Source of the DNA: Bacteroidales bacterium
Lineage (GTDB): Bacteria > Bacteroidota > Bacteroidia > Bacteroidales > F082
Direction of reading: 5' to 3'
Assembly (NCBI GenBank): GCA_017539045.1
Contig: JAFYHS010000016.1
Location: forward strand, 1-47,220
Length of the DNA: 47,220 bases
The notes below the pieces were generated by a model. It saw nothing but the letters and a program-made list of their open reading frames with translations. It made no database searches and was not told the origin of the DNA. Positions 29,643 through 40,617 of this stretch are shown here, one piece after another. The translations under genes were made by a program, and so were the position numbers. Positions within the stretch are counted from its first letter, which is position 1. Each line of letters begins with the position of its first letter.

Positions 29643-29650
29643 TATCTTTG
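29643..29650 (+). promoter_or_regulatory. Bacteroidota promoter for the B12-riboswitch/CoA-transferase unit
   Basis: TATCTTTG fits TAnnTTTG, with TTTG at 29617-29620 and a 22-bp spacer. The riboswitch begins about 10 bp after it. Confidence 0.7.
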
Positions 29651-29659
29651 CCGTCGATT

Positions 29660-29825
29660 TGTGGTGTCCCTCACGGACTCAATAGGGAATCGGGTGTGAA
29701 TCCCGGACAGTTCCCGCTGCTGTGATGGCTACAACGCTTGCCATGAATGCCACTGAAAGCCATGTCTTTCGGGAAGGCGGCAATGCGAGGCCTCAGTCAG
29801 AAGACCTGCCTCAAGTCGCTAAACA
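29660..29825 (+). ncRNA. Cobalamin riboswitch upstream of the CoA-transferase
   Basis: Conserved cobalamin riboswitch blocks are all present in order: GGGAATCGGGTGTGAATCCC, then CCCGCTGCTGTGA, the B12 box GCCACTG (29749-29755), and CAGTCAGAAGACCTGCC near the 3' end. It is the only leader between the promoter and the CoA-transferase start. A small stem (ACTTC 29828-29832 with GAAGT 29841-29845) ends 10 bp before the ATG and may be the expression platform. Family behaviour predicts reduced expression when B12 is high; the sign here is not directly shown. Confidence 0.93.
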
Positions 29826-29855
29826 AGACTTCCGGGAATTGAAGTTAGTCATATT

Positions 29856-31172
29856 ATGAAGAAACAATATCAAGCAGTTACGGCCGCTGAGGCCGTCAAA
29901 GTCATTAAGTCGGGCGATCACGTCCACATCAGTTCGGTTTCGAACGTTCCGCAATGTTTAGTCAAGGCCTTATGCGACAGAGGTCGCGCGGGCGAGCTCA
30001 AAAACGTTTACATTCATCACCTACATACCGAGGGCGCCGCGCCATACGTCAACCCCGAGTTTGAGGGTATTTTCCAACACAACGCCTTCTTCGTGGGCGC
30101 CAACGTGCGCGAGAGCGTGCAAAAAGGTCTGGCCGATTATATCCCAGTGTTCCTTGGTGAGACCTCGAAGCTCTATCGTGAGCGTTACATCAAATGCAAC
30201 GTGGCGATGATCCAGGTGTGTCCGCCCGACAAATTCGGCTATGTGTCGTTAGGCTCGTCTGTGGATGCCACCCTTGCTGCCATGGAGAGTGCAGAGTTTG
30301 TTATCGCCGTGGTCAACAAGCATGTGCCTCGTACCTTCGGCGACGCGTTGGTTCACATCAGCAGGATCAACATCTTTGTCGAAGACGACACGCCTTTGCT
30401 CACCGTCGACATGCCTGAGCCCAACGAGGTGGAGAAGACCATCGGTCGCTATTGCGCCGAATTGATAGAAGATGGTGCCTGCCTGCAGATGGGCATCGGT
30501 TCCATACCCAACGCCATCCTTTCGTGCCTCCACAACCATAAAAACATCGGCATCCATACCGAGATGTTCTCCGACGGCATTCTGCCGCTTGTTAAGAAAG
30601 GCGTCATCACGGGCGATAACAAGAAACTCAACAAGGGCAAAATCGTTTCCACCTTCGTGATGGGTTCGAAGAAAATCTACGACTTCATCGACGGCAACCA
30701 TGAGGTGCTGCTGATGGACGTGGAATACACCAACGACCCCTTTATCATTGCCCAACAGCCCAAGATGACTTCCATCAACTCAGGCATCCAGATTGACCTG
30801 TCGGGACAGGTGTGTGCCGACTCGTTGGGCGAACGCATCTACTCTGGCGTTGGCGGACAGATTGACTACGTCTATGGCGCCTCACGTTCCAAAGGTGGCA
30901 AGGCCATCATCGCCATGCCATCCACCACGCGCAAGGGCATCAACAAAATCGTGCCCACCCTTGACTTGGGTTCAGGTGCTGTCACCACGCGTAACCACAT
31001 TCATTGGTTCGTCACCGAATACGGTGCGGTGAACTTATATGGACGCTCGTTGCAGGAGCGGGCCAAACTCATCATCTCGGTGGCACATCCACAGTTCCAG
31101 GAGATGCTCGACGAAGCCGCCTTCAAGCGCTTCGGTCCGCACTTCCATTACCTTTGGAATAACATCCTATAA
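29856..31172 (+). CDS. Acetyl-CoA hydrolase/transferase family CoA-transferase
   Basis: The 438-aa cytoplasmic enzyme belongs to the 4-hydroxybutyrate/acetate/propionate CoA-transferase family (family I). QMGIGSIPNA (211-220) precedes the probable catalytic Glu E236 in IGIHTEMFSDG; SGVGGQIDYVYGA and FVTEYGAVNL follow. In Bacteroidota such enzymes exchange CoA among succinate, propionate, acetate and related acids. The B12 riboswitch ahead of it links it to B12 status, perhaps to the B12-dependent succinate-to-propionate path. The substrate is not decided by sequence. Co-transcribed with MarC (8-bp gap). Confidence 0.92.
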   Translation: MKKQYQAVTAAEAVKVIKSGDHVHISSVSNVPQCLVKALCDRGRAGELKNVYIHHLHTEGAAPYVNPEFEGIFQHNAFFVGANVRESVQKGLADYIPVFLGETSKLYRERYIKCNVAMIQVCPPDKFGYVSLGSSVDATLAAMESAEFVIAVVNKHVPRTFGDALVHISRINIFVEDDTPLLTVDMPEPNEVEKTIGRYCAELIEDGACLQMGIGSIPNAILSCLHNHKNIGIHTEMFSDGILPLVKKGVITGDNKKLNKGKIVSTFVMGSKKIYDFIDGNHEVLLMDVEYTNDPFIIAQQPKMTSINSGIQIDLSGQVCADSLGERIYSGVGGQIDYVYGASRSKGGKAIIAMPSTTRKGINKIVPTLDLGSGAVTTRNHIHWFVTEYGAVNLYGRSLQERAKLIISVAHPQFQEMLDEAAFKRFGPHFHYLWNNIL

Positions 31173-31180
31173 TTATAACT

Positions 31181-31774
31181 ATGTTCTCTCAAATCAACTT
31201 CGTAGAAATTTTTGGCGCCTTCATCGTCATGGCTGCCATCATCGACATCTTTGGCTCCATCCCTATCTTCATGAGCATGAAGGAGCAGAACAAGACTATC
31301 AAGGCGGGACAGGCCTGCCTGACGGCTCTTGGGCTGTTTCTTGCCTTCTTCTTTGCCGGCGATGCCTTGCTGAAACTCTTCGGCATCGATGCTGCCTCCT
31401 TTGCCGTGGCGGGAGCTTTCGTGTTGTTCATCCTTGCCGTGGAGATGATCCTCGGTCGAGAAATCATCAAGAACGAGGGTGGAAAAAGTGGTGCCAGCAT
31501 CGTCCCCATCGCCTTCCCCTTGATTGCGGGTCCTGGCGCGCTGACCGCCTTGCTCTCACTGCGTGCCGACTATGCCGTCATCAACATCATCATCGCCTTG
31601 TTGCTCAACATCTTGTTGGACTATATCGTCATCAGCCAGTTGGACCGGATACACAAAATCTTGGGCGAGAATCTTATCTTTATTTTGCGTAAGTTTTTCG
31701 GTGTCATCCTGTTGGCTATCGCCGTGAACATGTTTGTGAATAATATCCTCGTGATTATCGCGAGTGTACCGTAA
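31181..31774 (+). CDS. MarC family integral membrane protein
   Basis: This is a 197-aa six-helix protein of the MarC/UPF0056 family, with FIVMAAIIDIFGSIPIF at the start and VPIAFPLIAGPGALTALL in the middle as family signatures. Its biochemical role is not established; a transporter is suspected. It is downstream of the B12-riboswitch CoA-transferase in the same transcript, so it is predicted to be B12-regulated. Confidence 0.9.
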   Translation: MFSQINFVEIFGAFIVMAAIIDIFGSIPIFMSMKEQNKTIKAGQACLTALGLFLAFFFAGDALLKLFGIDAASFAVAGAFVLFILAVEMILGREIIKNEGGKSGASIVPIAFPLIAGPGALTALLSLRADYAVINIIIALLLNILLDYIVISQLDRIHKILGENLIFILRKFFGVILLAIAVNMFVNNILVIIASVP

Positions 31775-31911: not shown

Positions 31912-32895
31912 TTATTTCACTATCACTTTCTTTATCAACATATTATCATCCCATTCGATGGAGATGTAATAGATGCCTTTATTCAAATGGCTCAAATCAA
32001 GGCAGCTCTCGTTGCCAGTCACTTCTCCGTTCATGACGCATTGTCCAATATGGCTAAAAACGTGATAGCCAAAAGCAGAAACGCCCTCAATTGACAGCGT
32101 TAAACGGCCCTCGGTGGGATTCGGATACGCCTTGATGCCATAAAAGTCATCCTCTAGGCCTTCTACCTGGTTCATAATCACATGAATGTTGAAATCCACA
32201 TACTGTCCGTCGCTAGTGGCACGCATCGCAATATCGGCCTCAGCTTGTTCTTCCGTTAAGCGCTCAAGCATCAGGATCCTGCCATCCATGGAGGTCAAAA
32301 GAGCCTCTTCGTTGGAGTTGGACAGCATGGTGTATTCAATCAATTCGTCAGGGTCATCGGGATCGGTGGCGGCACCGTTGAGGTCGATATACACGATCTT
32401 GGGGAACTCGTCCATCACGACATCTGGAATCGGAGTAACAATGTAAGGCGGCAGGTCGACGACGGCGTTGATGATGACATGCACGTTGAAGTTAACGTAT
32501 TGGCCGTCGCTGGTGGCGCGCATCGTGAGGTCAGCCGTGGCCTGGTTAGCGTTTTGGCGTGTCATGACCAAGATCTTGCCGCTCATCGTAGCCGTCAAGG
32601 CCGAGGGATTCGAGTTGCTGACGATGCTGTAGGTGATGTTCTCATCTGGGTCGTCAGGGTCGGTGGCCACGCCGTTGAGGTTGACTTGTTGCGTCTGAGG
32701 ATACTCGTCGAAGACCACGTCAGAGACAGGGTTGACGATATAAGGTGGCTCATCGATGACAGCGTTAAGGATGACATGCACAGTGAAGTCGACCGACTGT
32801 CCATCGCTGGTGGCGCGCATCGTGAGGTCGGCGGTGGCTTGGTTGGCATTTTGACGCGTCATGACCAAGATCTTGCCGCTCATCGTGGCCGTCAA
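31912..32895 (-). CDS. T9SS C-terminal half of the frameshifted DUF4465 protein
   Basis: This 327-codon open frame is the downstream half of a gene broken by a one-base deletion at 32918/32919. Its apparent Met start is internal to a repeat and is unlikely to be real. It contains the end of repeat unit 1, units 2 and 3 of a roughly 99-residue cadherin-like beta repeat, and a typical type IX secretion sorting domain (YPNPTEGRLTLSIEG ... LNKGIYYISIEWDDN ... IKKVIVK), which targets cargo to the cell surface. It is the only part with that signal, so if the frameshift is real the upstream half would not be sorted by T9SS. See the 32892-33761 entry. Confidence 0.85.
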   Translation of the reverse strand: MTATMSGKILVMTRQNANQATADLTMRATSDGQSVDFTVHVILNAVIDEPPYIVNPVSDVVFDEYPQTQQVNLNGVATDPDDPDENITYSIVSNSNPSALTATMSGKILVMTRQNANQATADLTMRATSDGQYVNFNVHVIINAVVDLPPYIVTPIPDVVMDEFPKIVYIDLNGAATDPDDPDELIEYTMLSNSNEEALLTSMDGRILMLERLTEEQAEADIAMRATSDGQYVDFNIHVIMNQVEGLEDDFYGIKAYPNPTEGRLTLSIEGVSAFGYHVFSHIGQCVMNGEVTGNESCLDLSHLNKGIYYISIEWDDNMLIKKVIVK

Positions 32896-33046
32896 AGCCG
32901 AGGGATTCGAGTTGCTGAGATGCTGTAGGTGATGTTCTCATCCGGGTCGTCGGGGTCGGTGGCCACACCGTTGAGGTTGACTTGTTGCGTCTGCGGATAT
33001 TCGTCGAAGACCACGTCCGAAACAGGGTTGACGATATAAGGCGGCA
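32160..33046 (-). repeat. Three tandem ~297-bp repeats (cadherin-like units)
   Basis: Unit 1 runs 33046 to about 32753, unit 2 about 32752 to 32454, unit 3 about 32453 to 32160. Each encodes a PPYIVNPVSDVV...NGVATDPDDPDE... beta domain of about 99 residues. Units 1 and 2 are roughly 90% identical in DNA and nearly identical in protein, while unit 3 is diverged. Confidence 0.85.
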
Positions 33047-33761
33047 GGTCGGGAGCAGCGCCACCACCGTTGAAGTTATCCATGCAGAAATAGGCCGGCG
33101 TAATCATGTTGTAGCCACTCCCTCTTGATGAAGAAAGACTAAAGGAGATGATAGCCACATCGCCCAAGGGGCTGAGATCGAACCACTCCCAAGTATCAAG
33201 GACATAGTCTTCCTCGTTGTTGGCAAATCGATAGTCGGCGAGGTAGAAATCCAATGTACCCACAGTTTGTCCGCTGGCATTCTTACCTGTCGCTGTCACC
33301 TTGAACCAGTCAGGGTCGTTGCCTGTAGTTCCTCCGTAGGGTAGCTCGCCATACCCGCCTAGAAGAATGTCCTGATAAGTCCACAGATTGTTGGTGACAT
33401 AGCAGCCCGTGACGGTATGCAATTGCCCATCGGCGGCAGAGACTTCCGTCTGCACGCCCATGGTATATGCCACGGCATATTGGGTAGAGCCGTCGTAGCC
33501 ACAGCCTGTAGCCGCAGTATACTGGGCATCCAAACCAGATTGGCTCAAATCCGTGCGGTTGGAGGCCGTAAAACCACCCCAATAGCCGTATTGGGTATAA
33601 TTGGTAAAGAGCCAGCCGCCGCTGGGCATTTCATTTTCGCCAACAGGGGGTTGCCAGATACCACCGCTACCGAGTGGAACATCTTCGAAAGTGGCCGGAT
33701 CCTGGGCAAAAGCCATGACCGCCAAAAAAAGCGAGAAGGTTAAGGATAAAAGTTTTCGCAT
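32892..33761 (-). CDS. DUF4465 secreted protein, N-terminal half (frameshifted)
   Basis: The 289-codon frame has a signal peptide (LSLTFSLFLAVMAFAQ) and a full DUF4465 domain: TFEDVPLGSGGIWQPP, SGGWLFTNYTQYGYWGGFT, NRTDL, CYVTNN, TGNDPDWFKVTATG, TLDFYLADYRF and TPAYFCMDNF. It then enters repeat unit 1 and goes out of frame: the intact repeats read ITYSIVSNSNPSALTATM, while this one turns to ITYSISATRIPRL and stops. One C is missing between 32918 and 32919 relative to unit 2 (GCTGACGATGC versus GCTGAGATGC). A cobalamin riboswitch is its leader. From memory, DUF4465-type proteins include BtuH-like surface B12 binders of Bacteroides. B12 capture is therefore a reasonable role. Confidence 0.85.
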   Translation of the reverse strand: MRKLLSLTFSLFLAVMAFAQDPATFEDVPLGSGGIWQPPVGENEMPSGGWLFTNYTQYGYWGGFTASNRTDLSQSGLDAQYTAATGCGYDGSTQYAVAYTMGVQTEVSAADGQLHTVTGCYVTNNLWTYQDILLGGYGELPYGGTTGNDPDWFKVTATGKNASGQTVGTLDFYLADYRFANNEEDYVLDTWEWFDLSPLGDVAIISFSLSSSRGSGYNMITPAYFCMDNFNGGGAAPDLPPYIVNPVSDVVFDEYPQTQQVNLNGVATDPDDPDENITYSISATRIPRL

Positions 33762-33777
33762 AACTCATTTGTTTTTA

Positions 33778-33797
33778 TGCATTAAACGAATAATGCA
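33778..33797 (-). other. Hairpin between riboswitch and DUF4465 start
   Basis: A perfect 7-bp inverted repeat TGCATTA / TAATGCA (33778-33784 and 33791-33797, 6-nt loop) ends 16 bp before the ATG of the DUF4465 gene. It may be the riboswitch expression platform or a ribosome-access control element. Confidence 0.4.
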
Positions 33798-33869
33798 AGA
33801 CCATCGCAAGCAGCTATGCTAATTGCCACGCTTAGCGTCGCCCTTGTTCCCGAAGGCTTGCAATTGAAC

Positions 33870-34019
33870 TCTTGGTTTGGCAGGTCTTCTGACTCGCCCG
33901 AGCCTGTCGCCTTCCCATCTGGATGAGCCAGACAGTGGCTTTGTTTGACAGACCTTACACGGGCTTACAGCAGCGGGCACTGTTGCCGATTCACACGGCA
34001 TTCCCTTAACCAAACTTGG
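33870..34019 (-). ncRNA. Cobalamin riboswitch upstream of the DUF4465 gene
   Basis: On the minus strand the blocks AAGGGAATGCCGTGTGAAT, then TGCCCGCTGCTGTAAGCCC, the B12 box GCCACTG (33939-33933) and GAGTCAGAAGACCTGCC appear in order, as in the class I cobalamin riboswitch. P1-type ends GTTTGG and CCAAAC close the fold. It is followed by about 105 nt before the gene start and preceded by a promoter box at 34029-34022. Confidence 0.93.
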
Positions 34020-34021
34020 TG

Positions 34022-34029
34022 CAAAAATA
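34022..34029 (-). promoter_or_regulatory. Bacteroidota -7 box for the DUF4465 riboswitch unit
   Basis: Minus strand TATTTTTG (TAnnTTTG) lies just before the riboswitch and just after the CDF gene stop, so the CDF gene and the B12 unit are separate transcripts. Confidence 0.6.
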
Positions 34030-35908: not shown

Positions 35909-36718
35909 TTACTTTACCATAACTTTCTTCACCTCATTACCGGCTTTCACAAAGTATAAGCCGCTGGTAAGACCTTGCAGGTCGATGGTTTGCTTGTTGT
36001 CCACAAACAAAGATCTCACAACGCGACCCATCTCATCAACGATGGTCACGAGGCCTTCGGCTTCGATGGTGAGGGTCTCTGAGGCGGGATTGGGATAGAT
36101 GTTCACCGTGGCGTTTTCGTTTTCTCCGATACCCACATGGCCGCAGTCGTCATAAAGCTGGATGCCTTGCCATTCCTCAGCGGCTTCGAAGGCTTCGATG
36201 CAGTTGCAAGGCACGATGATGTGCACATGGTCGTTGATGTCGGCGAAGGCATCGTCCCAAAGGAAGAACGGCTCGGTGGAATGAATGAAGATGTAATCGA
36301 GCTCCTCGCAATAGCTGAAGGCATTCGAATTGATCTGTTGCATACCTTCCGGAAGTTCGATGTATTCCAAAATGTGGCAGTTGGCAAACGAATGGTAACC
36401 GATGTTCACGATGGTGCTGGGCAAGGTGATACTGGTGAGATTGACACAACCGTAGAAAGCCTCGCTGCCGATGTAGCGGACCCTGTAGGTCTCCCCGTTG
36501 ATGGTTTCCGTTTCGGGAACGACCACGTCACCCGAATAGGTATTAGGATCGTCGTTGTTGACAACGATCAGATAGGTCTCGCCACAACCGCCTCCTGGAA
36601 GTTGCTGCGTGGCTTTGCGGTAATAGATGCCATTGACATAGTAATCATAGGCAAATGCACTTTGGCAAACCATCATGAGTGCCAAGGTCAGAAAAGAAAA
36701 GATAAATGTTCGTTTCAT
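35909..36718 (-). CDS. BspA-like leucine-rich repeat protein with T9SS sorting domain
   Basis: Translation from the ATG at 36718 gives 269 aa with signal peptide (TFIFSFLTLALMMVCQSAFA). The middle holds BspA-type leucine-rich repeats (YIGSEAFYGCVNLTSITLPS, IGYHSFANCHILEYIELPEG, INSNAFSYCEELDYIFI) and the C-terminus is a T9SS sorting domain (NIYPNPASETLTIEAEG, GLTSGLYFVKAGNEVKKVMVK). It is expected on the cell surface, where BspA-like proteins bind host or other proteins. A longer start at 36778 is possible but lacks a signal-peptide N-terminus. Confidence 0.9.
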   Translation of the reverse strand: MKRTFIFSFLTLALMMVCQSAFAYDYYVNGIYYRKATQQLPGGGCGETYLIVVNNDDPNTYSGDVVVPETETINGETYRVRYIGSEAFYGCVNLTSITLPSTIVNIGYHSFANCHILEYIELPEGMQQINSNAFSYCEELDYIFIHSTEPFFLWDDAFADINDHVHIIVPCNCIEAFEAAEEWQGIQLYDDCGHVGIGENENATVNIYPNPASETLTIEAEGLVTIVDEMGRVVRSLFVDNKQTIDLQGLTSGLYFVKAGNEVKKVMVK

Positions 36719-36844
36719 AATTGCAATTATTAGAGATAGTGTTAACAATATATTTAGGTGCAATAAATCGAAAATCATAACACATGCATGAAAAAAAAGT
36801 CCAGAAATTGGAAAAAAAGAACCAAATCATGTTATTTTTCAAAT

Positions 36845-38663: not shown

Positions 38664-39536
38664 ATGAAAAAACATGTATTATTCTTTCTGTTGTGCACTT
38701 TTGCCATGATTGGCATGACTCAGGCACAAAACCGTGGCGATATCCAACTGAAAGCCATCGAGATGAACGATATTATGATTTCACAAGACCAACTGCCTTC
38801 TGAAGGTTCTTGGTTCTCTTATGTCGGTGACTATTCTTCACCTCAAATTCTCGGTATCGGCATGCCCTTCAACTGGGGGTATATGTTTCCCGCTGAACTG
38901 TTGAGCGAGTACAAGGGTTGCTCCTTCACCCAGTTTGGTTTCTTGGATGCAGGCGAAGAGCAATTCGCCACCACCTACACCGTCAACTTCTATCTTGGCG
39001 GCGATACTGCTCCACAAACTTTGGTTGCGACACAACAGTTCGAAATCACTGGAACGGTCGGCGATGTTGTCACCTTCAGACTCGACACACCTGTCGAAAT
39101 CGACGGCACACAAAACATCTGGCTGACCTTCTACCACGATGGTTCCATCCAATATCCCGCTCCTGCCGTTGCCGATGTGGGCAACCCCAACAGCCGATGG
39201 ATTGGTATCGATGGCTATGGTTGGATGGACGTTGCCTCTGTCAGCAGCGAGGCCTACAGCTGGCTGGCTTGGGTTTACGTTGACGGTTACGATTGGATCA
39301 ATGAAAGCAACGAATCAGTCTCTGTCTATCCCAACCCCACCACAGGCAACGTGAACATCGCTGCACCGGGTATCAATCACGTCACGGTGATGAACATGCT
39401 CGGACAGGTGGTTTACGACAGCAAAGCCGATGGAAACATGACCACCCTCGACATGAGCTCCTATCAAGCTGGCGTTTACATGGTGCGTGTGACCACTGAA
39501 AACGGCGAAAGCGTGAAACTCATCACTAAACAATAA
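38664..39536 (+). CDS. Secreted T9SS cargo protein
   Basis: The 290-aa protein has a signal peptide (FFLLCTFAMIGMTQAQ) and a C-terminal T9SS sorting domain (SVYPNPTTGNVNIAAPG ... MLGQVVYDSK ... YQAGVYMVRVTTENGESVKLITKQ). The middle domain (residues about 25-215, with WFSYVGDYSSPQILGIG and VEIDGTQNIWLTFYHDG) resembles the jelly-roll region of T9SS-associated choice-of-anchor proteins. Cargo is sent to the surface by T9SS. In the sigma operon, just before the thioredoxin-like cargo. Confidence 0.88.
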   Translation: MKKHVLFFLLCTFAMIGMTQAQNRGDIQLKAIEMNDIMISQDQLPSEGSWFSYVGDYSSPQILGIGMPFNWGYMFPAELLSEYKGCSFTQFGFLDAGEEQFATTYTVNFYLGGDTAPQTLVATQQFEITGTVGDVVTFRLDTPVEIDGTQNIWLTFYHDGSIQYPAPAVADVGNPNSRWIGIDGYGWMDVASVSSEAYSWLAWVYVDGYDWINESNESVSVYPNPTTGNVNIAAPGINHVTVMNMLGQVVYDSKADGNMTTLDMSSYQAGVYMVRVTTENGESVKLITKQ

Positions 39537-39540
39537 TACC

Positions 39541-40617
39541 ATGAAAAAACTATCCATCCTATTCGCGTTCCTACTCTTTGGAGTAGGTCTTCGCGCACAA
39601 CAGACCAACCTCACCGAGGCCGTCGACTTCACCGTCACCGACTGCCATGGACAGACCTACAACCTCTTCGAGATCCTTGACCGCGGCCAAGCCGTCTTCA
39701 TCGACTTCTTCTTCTACACCTGTGGCCAATGCCAGGTGATTTCGCCCTACATCACGGGATCCTATACCCAGATGGGCTGCAACATGCACGATGTGTTCTA
39801 CATCGAGATCTCCTACATCGACAGCGATGCCGTCTGCCAGCAATGGGCCAACGAATATGGCGTTGAGTTCCCCACTGTAGGAAAAGACGGTGGCGGTAAC
39901 GAGGTCTTCGAGCTTTATGGCATCCAAGCCTGCCCCACCCTTGTCCTCATCATGCCCGACCGCAGCATCCCCATCCAAGGCCTGCTGGATCTCTATCCCT
40001 TCTCGGCACAAGACGTGGTCAATGCCATGCAACAAAACGGCTTGCAGCCTCACGATTGCACGGGCACACTGACCGTCAACCCGCAGACCTTGCACATCTA
40101 CAACGATGGTGAGACCTACCAGCCTGGCAAGCTGACCATCTCCAACATGACCGCTGAAGACGTAACCGTCGATGCCTTCACTGCCGACCCCATCTTTGCA
40201 TTACAATGCATGTATGAGGGGCAAGATGTCACCGAGGGCATGACTGTCGCGGCTGGACAAACCGCCACCGTGGAAGTCTATGTCGACGTTCCTGTGAAGG
40301 AGAATTTCGAAGGTAAGATGTATGTCAACACCTCGGCGGGCAACTTCGAGGTCGACATCGTTTACGAGATGACCGTTGGCGTCGATGAAAACAGCTCGAC
40401 GGTGACCATGTTCCCCAATCCCGCCAACGAAAGTGTTACCCTCCAAGGCGAGAACCTTGGCGTGGTAAGCCTTTACAATGTTGTCGGGCAGAAAGTCGAG
40501 ACTTTCTATACCGACGAGTCGCAATTAGTGATCCCGACTGCCAAGTACCAAGAGGGCATCTACTTCATCAGGACAAGCAACGGTAACACGCAACGCTTGG
40601 TGATTGTGCACAAGTAA
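39541..40617 (+). CDS. Thioredoxin-like T9SS cargo protein
   Basis: The 358-aa protein has a signal peptide (ending LRAQ), a thioredoxin-like domain with a CGQC motif (C61, C64; FFFYTCGQCQ) and PTLVLIMPD later, then an immunoglobulin-like linker and a C-terminal T9SS sorting domain (FPNPANESVTLQGENLG ... EGIYFIRTSNGNTQRLVIVHK). It may act on disulfides of surface proteins. It is last in the ECF operon, starting 4 bp after the previous stop. A redox role for the operon is plausible. Confidence 0.88.
   Translation: MKKLSILFAFLLFGVGLRAQQTNLTEAVDFTVTDCHGQTYNLFEILDRGQAVFIDFFFYTCGQCQVISPYITGSYTQMGCNMHDVFYIEISYIDSDAVCQQWANEYGVEFPTVGKDGGGNEVFELYGIQACPTLVLIMPDRSIPIQGLLDLYPFSAQDVVNAMQQNGLQPHDCTGTLTVNPQTLHIYNDGETYQPGKLTISNMTAEDVTVDAFTADPIFALQCMYEGQDVTEGMTVAAGQTATVEVYVDVPVKENFEGKMYVNTSAGNFEVDIVYEMTVGVDENSSTVTMFPNPANESVTLQGENLGVVSLYNVVGQKVETFYTDESQLVIPTAKYQEGIYFIRTSNGNTQRLVIVHK

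Follow-up and report, generated by a model that had tools for sequence, protein, structure and literature searches.

A riboswitch-led DUF4465 gene with a type IX secretion tail and its probable role in cobamide capture in a Bacteroidales genome

Does a gene that is led by a cobalamin riboswitch, and that carries both a DUF4465 domain and a sorting domain of the type IX secretion system (T9SS), specify a surface protein for the capture of vitamin B12? The question is raised by a stretch of 47,220 nucleotides from a Bacteroidales bacterium (F082), referred to here as the window, which corresponds to positions 1 to 47,220 of contig JAFYHS010000016.1 in assembly GCA_017539045.1. The locus of interest lies on the minus strand between positions 31912 and 34029. 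Its best explanation, and one that sequence comparisons and structural models render probable, is a BtuJ-type cobamide catcher that would be induced by B12 starvation and displayed on a stalk by way of the T9SS. Indeed, a role in B12 capture for such a T9SS-delivered, riboswitch-controlled protein is predicted with good support from homology. Neither the binding of B12 by DUF4465 proteins (published in 2025-2026) nor the existence of T9SS-tailed DUF4465 proteins is new. Less known are the uncoupling from BtuB, the frequent CoA-transferase neighbor, the shuffling of modules, and the leader element in this rumen Bacteroidales genus.

The sequence-only reading of the window had described a complete DUF4465 domain and had likened it to the B12 binders of the BtuH type. 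The domain is indeed complete. Residues 57-230 of the open reading frame (ORF) at 32892-33761, corresponding to positions 33072-33593 on the minus strand, match PF14717 at 162.1 bits versus a cut-off of 25. On the basis of sequence comparisons, it belongs to the BtuJ family, namely that of BtuJ1, BtuJ2, and D5EK51, and not to that of BtuH. Among the sequences of the Protein Data Bank (PDB), the window protein matches BtuJ1 (9QPM, E 1.1e-25 and 9FCT, E 1.2e-25) and D5EK51 (9HMU, E 2.6e-19). At E ≤1, a profile constructed from 58 DUF4465 domains (the window plus 57 of 83 candidate domain stretches) retrieved six distinct PDB sequences, each of them a DUF4465 protein or an entry titled DUF4465, with 9HMU at E 8.3e-43. 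The BtuH proteins, described in PMC8941943 as B12-binding surface proteins of Bacteroidetes that usually adjoin btuB and form a separate family, were rejected as a match. The structure of BtuH2 (7BIZ) is absent both from the 12 matches that the window protein gave at E ≤10 and from the six matches of the profile. A true BtuH homologue at a related locus matches 7BIZ at E 5.8e-115.

The AlphaFold2 model of the window's own DUF4465 domain, with a predicted local distance difference test (pLDDT) score of 93.6, displays the augmented β-jellyroll fold. A Foldseek search with the model yielded nine matches at E ≤0.001, all to DUF4465 structures, with the next row at E 2.9e-3. The template modelling (TM) scores to 9HMU, 9QPM, and 9FCT are 0.82-0.84 when normalized to the query and 0.77-0.79 when normalized to the target. 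Those for 4JQR and for 9I2L (BtuJ2) and 4E9K are 0.79 and 0.66-0.71, respectively. The predicted fold agrees with those of BtuJ1 and D5EK51 in their B12-bound state. The binding tyrosine in the HI loop of BtuJ1, Tyr 245 in the motif TPAY, is retained as Tyr 224 in TPAYF, and the 58 domains display 56 tyrosines and two phenylalanines at this position. Eight divergent DUF4465 proteins, with identities down to 16%, bind B12 according to PMC13398666.

The second cobalamin riboswitch of the window, noted earlier at 33870-34019, is real. The RF00174 aptamer extends from 33862 to 34029 on the minus strand (92.5 bits versus a gathering score of 31.5, E 8.8e-22, full model 1-189), and the ATG of the DUF4465 gene follows at 33761 on the same strand, ∼100 nucleotides (nt) past it, which would place the gene in a cobalamin riboswitch regulon. 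No intrinsic terminator was found. A putative Bacteroidota-type promoter motif, sought with one fixed pattern, precedes the aptamer in eight of 20 sequences, that of the window included. Across the taxonomic family, PF14717 is found in 60 of 149 genomes. Riboswitches were counted for 63 DUF4465 ORFs in the fetched stretches of up to 59 genomes, leaving aside the window itself and a fragment from G073. For 48 of these ORFs a listed riboswitch lies within 1 kb upstream on the same strand. As read by eye, in three more cases the gene directly in front is itself a DUF4465 gene, and in a further seven it is a CoA-transferase gene that precedes, the riboswitch being 1.6-2.2 kb upstream. None was seen in these stretches for the other five (L050, L065, L066, L067, and L076), of which L050 and L065 are located at contig ends.

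All of the parts had been assigned to one gene, but a break inside the first repeat had been missed, and because of it the gene as sequenced consists of two ORFs in different frames. The first (32892-33761, minus strand, 289 residues) begins with a signal peptide at 33705-33761, which by eye reads as a probable Sec signal with no lipobox cysteine. The DUF4465 domain and the start of repeat 1 follow, after which the sequence runs out of frame. The second ORF (31912-32895, minus strand) contains the remaining repeats and the tail. From the ORF translations and a comparison of the repeats, repeat 1 spans 32749-33044 on the minus strand with the break at ∼32,890-32,940, and repeats 2 and 3 occupy 32155-32748 on the same strand. 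The T9SS type A C-terminal sorting domain, at 31918-32127 on the minus strand, is confirmed by PF18962 (51.7 bits) and by TIGR04183 (52.2 bits versus a cut-off of 23). The two hallmarks of a T9SS cargo, the signal peptide on the DUF4465 side and the sorting domain, are both present in the window, but in separate ORFs.

The claim of three cadherin-like repeats stands with regard to the units themselves, which number three and are each 99 residues long; repeats 1 and 2 are 88.6% identical in DNA. Their likeness to cadherins is less firm, with Cadherin_3 scoring 17 bits in the window, below the cut-off of 25.5, and reaching E ≤0.001 in nine of 17 intact relatives. The fold class was taken from a model of an intact relative (L096), whose repeats resemble cadherin and immunoglobulin arrays by Foldseek, with low whole-chain TM scores. 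This full-length model is poor over the DUF4465 part (mean pLDDT 67.8, predicted TM score 0.32) and was used for the repeats only.

The close relatives indicate what the gene would look like without the break. The best 80 of 158 confirmed matches provided 76 loci, and the 20 closest homologues of this form, the window not counted, were followed to the stop codon. The frame is intact in 17, and in the other three (L097, L114, and L145) it is broken in the repeat part. The intact lengths step by the 99-residue unit, such that 418, 517, and 616 residues correspond to one, two, and three repeats. Longer intact forms of 865 and 964 residues carry an extra stretch, and a β-helix match at E ≤0.001 is observed in three of the 17. 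From the DUF4465 start codon of the window to the stop codon of the tail ORF there are 1,850 nt; the intact three-repeat relatives have 1,851. The break is probably either an error of the assembly or a lesion recently acquired by a gene with mostly intact relatives. In all 17 intact relatives the DUF4465 domain and the T9SS tail reside within one protein. With the riboswitch counts given above, the riboswitch-DUF4465-T9SS arrangement, which was to be looked for in related Bacteroidales, is indeed found there. Many of the relatives' records mention ruminant gut sites in their titles (yak, goat, sheep, water buffalo, and red deer), and one is named "bacterium F082"; the "RUG" of the record titles presumably stands for rumen uncultured genome.

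The genome from which the window derives (2.36 Mb, 80.9% complete) contains a single DUF4465 match and three cobalamin riboswitches. A match to SprA of the T9SS translocon (559.7 bits) and 126 Por_Secre_tail matches are present, as are two methylmalonyl-CoA mutase matches and a BtuF-like gene. The absence of BtuB and BtuG beside the DUF4465 gene, as first described, holds: the sole BtuB-like match, found with the L069 receptor as the query (32% identity), is positioned on contig C4 and the sole BtuG-like (DUF5074) match on C40, with the window being C21. The third riboswitch, on C40, leads a run of genes (L095:8254-13287) for a T9SS-tailed protein with a DUF4430 triplet, a 326-residue T9SS-tailed protein, a BtuG-like lipoprotein, and a PF01497 binding protein, and thus T9SS tails occur here on more than one riboswitch-led protein. 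The 326-residue protein has no other Pfam domain above cut-off. It was considered as a BtuH, but the match is weak (hhalign probability 38%, E 3.3e-4, 53 columns), and its good structure matches cover the tail only.

The anchor types were compared across 58 genomes using a T9SS-tail profile of our own construction. The DUF4465 proteins carry a T9SS tail in 47 genomes, are lipoprotein-like in six, have neither anchor in five, and in no case have both. Of the five, that of G086 is cut, that of G096 is a fragment, that of G119 is broken, and in G081 and G120 no tail was detected. In a midpoint-rooted tree, the seven lipoprotein domains cluster together at the end of a long branch (100/100), and the other DUF4465 domains of the genus, together with that of the window, form a second group of 45 rows (100/99). 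A simple swap between lipoprotein and T9SS anchors on one gene inside the genus is unsupported, given that the lipoprotein domains form a group of their own.

BtuB and BtuG are encoded at all seven lipoprotein-type loci and at nine of ten loci from the family's other genera, the tenth (L067) being cut by a contig end. There are 43 non-lipoprotein loci in the genus, 39 with a detected tail, and these were viewed in stretches of ∼9-17 kb, some cut by contig ends. A CoA-transferase gene is present in 33 and a MarC gene in 31 of them; the CoA-transferase gene lies within 20 nt on the same strand in 14 loci and more than 6 kb away in three. In the window these two frequent neighbors form a pair convergent with the DUF4465 gene, at 29856-31172 (plus strand, acetyl-CoA hydrolase/transferase family by domain searches) and 31181-31774 (plus strand, MarC family membrane protein by domain search). 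They are led by the other RF00174 riboswitch (29645-29827, plus strand, 107.5 bits). The best NCBIfam match of the CoA-transferase-family gene, TIGR03948, scores 313.8 bits, below its cut-off of 674.8. A literature search found no paper linking a cobalamin riboswitch with a CoA transferase in Bacteroidetes.

Situated between the aptamer and the start codon is a near-invariant leader element of ∼70 nt (33790-33866, minus strand). Its pairwise identity over 20 sequences, the window included, averages 93.2% with a minimum of 77.1%, compared with 73.7% for the third codon positions of DUF4465, 93.7% for the first and second, and 75% elsewhere in the leader. A search of the 99 genomes of the genus located 30 copies in 29 genomes. 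The window's own genome contains one full copy, the second match there being merely 19 nt in length (E 1.9). In all 30 copies the start codon lies 81-103 nt past the leader core, and in 29 the marks of the aptamer are directly upstream, the remaining copy being cut by a contig end. The element is not a known RNA by Rfam: no match reached a gathering score, and four matches at E up to 10 (E ≥0.67) fall far below cut-off. None of 24 predicted pairs changed on both sides, which is explained by how little the sequence varies. As a single strand, the leader (33752-33866) folds somewhat better than shuffled sequences (z -1.97). With the aptamer included, two of 59 pairs changed on both sides among 15 sequences, both within the aptamer part. 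The simplest reading is that the element is perhaps the expression platform of the riboswitch.

The 30 copies lead 23 ORFs that begin with DUF4465 and seven that begin with a β-helix. The DUF4465 score is strong for 21 of the 23; for L192 and L198 the scan of the leader copies kept a later weak segment, although a separate DUF4465 search gave these two genes scores of 447 and 452. Two of the seven β-helix-first ORFs have a DUF4465 domain further on (L212 and L213), and in three no such domain is visible by eye; of the last two, one is broken and the other cut. The three without it (L209:6218-7858, L210:7318-9846, and L211:4350-7463) encode β-helix-type proteins of 547, 843, and 1,038 residues with T9SS-like tails; they share the riboswitch, leader, and scaffold of the others but show no known B12-binding domain.

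Taken together, these data suggest the following mechanism. At low intracellular cobalamin, the riboswitch would permit expression of the DUF4465 gene. The protein would exit by Sec, pass through the outer membrane via the T9SS, and probably be anchored at the cell surface by its C-terminal sorting domain. The cadherin-like repeats, three here and one to three in close relatives, would hold the N-terminal DUF4465 domain outward, and its loop pocket may clamp a cobamide. The ligand would then be handed to the BtuG/BtuB/BtuF route encoded elsewhere in the genome, and could feed, for example, methylmalonyl-CoA mutase. Several observations weigh against this explanation. In the sequence as it stands, the DUF4465 domain and the T9SS tail share no ORF. 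The DE-loop tyrosine of BtuJ1 (Tyr 146, its position mapped from the PDB sequence alignment and the numbering of PMC13398666) is replaced here by Trp 127, and the 58 aligned domains, the window included, contain 39 tryptophans, 17 tyrosines, and two phenylalanines at that position. The BtuB-like gene scores 97.5 bits with TIGR01779 (TonB-B12), whose cut-off is 599.7, and its contig carries none of the three riboswitches. Finally, BtuB is found in none of the 43 non-lipoprotein genus loci within the fetched stretches, which leaves the riboswitch and homology as the basis for a link to uptake.

Other accounts of the locus were weighed. If the frame break is real, the gene would be a pseudogene in this strain, with only a fragment containing the signal peptide and DUF4465 produced and, lacking T9SS anchoring, either periplasmic or lost. 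Breaks in the repeat part do recur, given that L097, L114, and L145 are likewise broken, and the two ORFs of the window lie in different frames. Assembly errors are nonetheless plausible where repeats are as alike as the first two, 17 of 20 relatives are intact, and the ORF after the break still specifies whole repeats and a sorting domain that scores above cut-off. We consider a pseudogene unlikely. The DE-loop tryptophan across the clade could instead signal another ligand, such as a glycan or an incomplete corrinoid, with the riboswitch merely mirroring B12 metabolism, for instance the pathway in which the neighboring CoA-transferase takes part; the frequency of that neighbor and the lack of BtuB would fit. 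The DE-loop residue varies within the family, however, as the counts over the 58 domains indicate, and is read here from the alignment as a variant site. PMC13398666 calls the tyrosine conserved among three structures and does not require it of family members. In addition, the predicted fold and the HI-loop tyrosine agree with the B12-bound structures, the eight divergent members bind B12, and 48 of 63 ORFs have their own riboswitch. Another ligand thus appears quite improbable.

A further possibility is that the protein, instead of staying anchored to the cell, collects B12 mainly on vesicles or after release, as has been suggested for BtuJ on the vesicles of B. theta. BtuJ and BtuL are enriched on the vesicles of that organism and vesicle-mediated uptake requires BtuJ (PMC12751083), and the 43 loci without an adjoining BtuB gene would be compatible with such a role. 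A T9SS type A tail, however, usually leads to attachment to surface lipopolysaccharide. A collector of this type is regarded as rather unlikely, and the T9SS-displayed, cell-anchored cobamide catcher is retained.

If correct, that explanation would mean that a rumen lineage uses the T9SS, by which P. gingivalis delivers its surface proteases, to place BtuJ-type binders on its surface on stalks of differing length, and that it has linked them with a CoA-transferase gene. The explanation would clearly predict where DUF4465 proteins act outside of Bacteroides, and the RNA element is directly testable. In gut communities, competition extends to the capture of B12 (PMC13398666), and the propionate production of a rumen bacterium can be cobalamin-dependent (PMC11575231). 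A bolder proposal, which is advanced tentatively and which we consider doubtful as a whole, is that the B12-capture front end of the genus has been rebuilt as a riboswitch-controlled, T9SS-displayed modular set (DUF4465, DUF4430 triplets, possibly a BtuH-like domain, β-helix, and cadherin-like parts), apart from BtuB and tied to the CoA-transferase unit, and that the ∼70-nt leader is a distinct regulatory RNA rather than a spacer, so far seen only in these leaders.

Two sets of proteins outside this arrangement are of note. Three more T9SS-tailed proteins are encoded in the window (35909-36778 and 38664-40617). One contains leucine-rich repeats of the BspA type, another has no further domain above cut-off, and the third is AhpC/TSA-like. 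In another genus of the family, L070, L071, and L072 each have two DUF4465 domains in one ORF with a T9SS tail, adjoining BtuB/BtuG.

How, then, does the window protein compare with known systems? It shares with BtuH (7BIZ) the anticipated role of a B12-binding surface protein, but BtuH is of another family. With BtuJ1 and BtuJ2 of Bacteroides thetaiotaomicron (IPR027828), it has in common the family, the predicted fold, and, as far as can be predicted, riboswitch control and an extracellular role. Those proteins, however, are lipoproteins in B12-uptake operons, whereas that of the window has a repeat stalk, a T9SS tail, a DE-loop tryptophan, and no BtuB neighbor. The DUF4465 loci of the family's other genera (L069 and L071, for example) likewise combine a signal peptide, DUF4465, a T9SS tail, and, in most cases, an upstream riboswitch, but nearly all have BtuB and BtuG alongside and mostly short ORFs (325-334 residues, ∼545 with two domains, and 713 in L085). 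The literature differs as to how DUF4465 proteins are anchored: more than 70% are predicted lipoproteins in PMC13398666 versus 275 of 824 members in PMC12751083. The latter paper, which names BtuJ1/BtuJ2, also counts 229 members with IPR026444 (T9SS), 88 with IPR013424, and 170 with periplasmic signals, none of these together. Because of these 229, the T9SS tail on DUF4465 is not in itself new. What stands is the missing BtuB neighbor, which is common to the genus, but BtuB-like and BtuG-like genes are present elsewhere in the genome. A literature search, conducted mostly at the level of summaries, found no paper on the arrangement of repeats, T9SS tail, and riboswitch with DUF4465. The T9SS-tailed set of PMC12751083, known as a count, has DUF4465 and a T9SS C-terminal domain in common with them; to these the proteins described here add the riboswitch, the variable cadherin-like repeats, the β-helix module, the CoA-transferase linkage, and the leader element.

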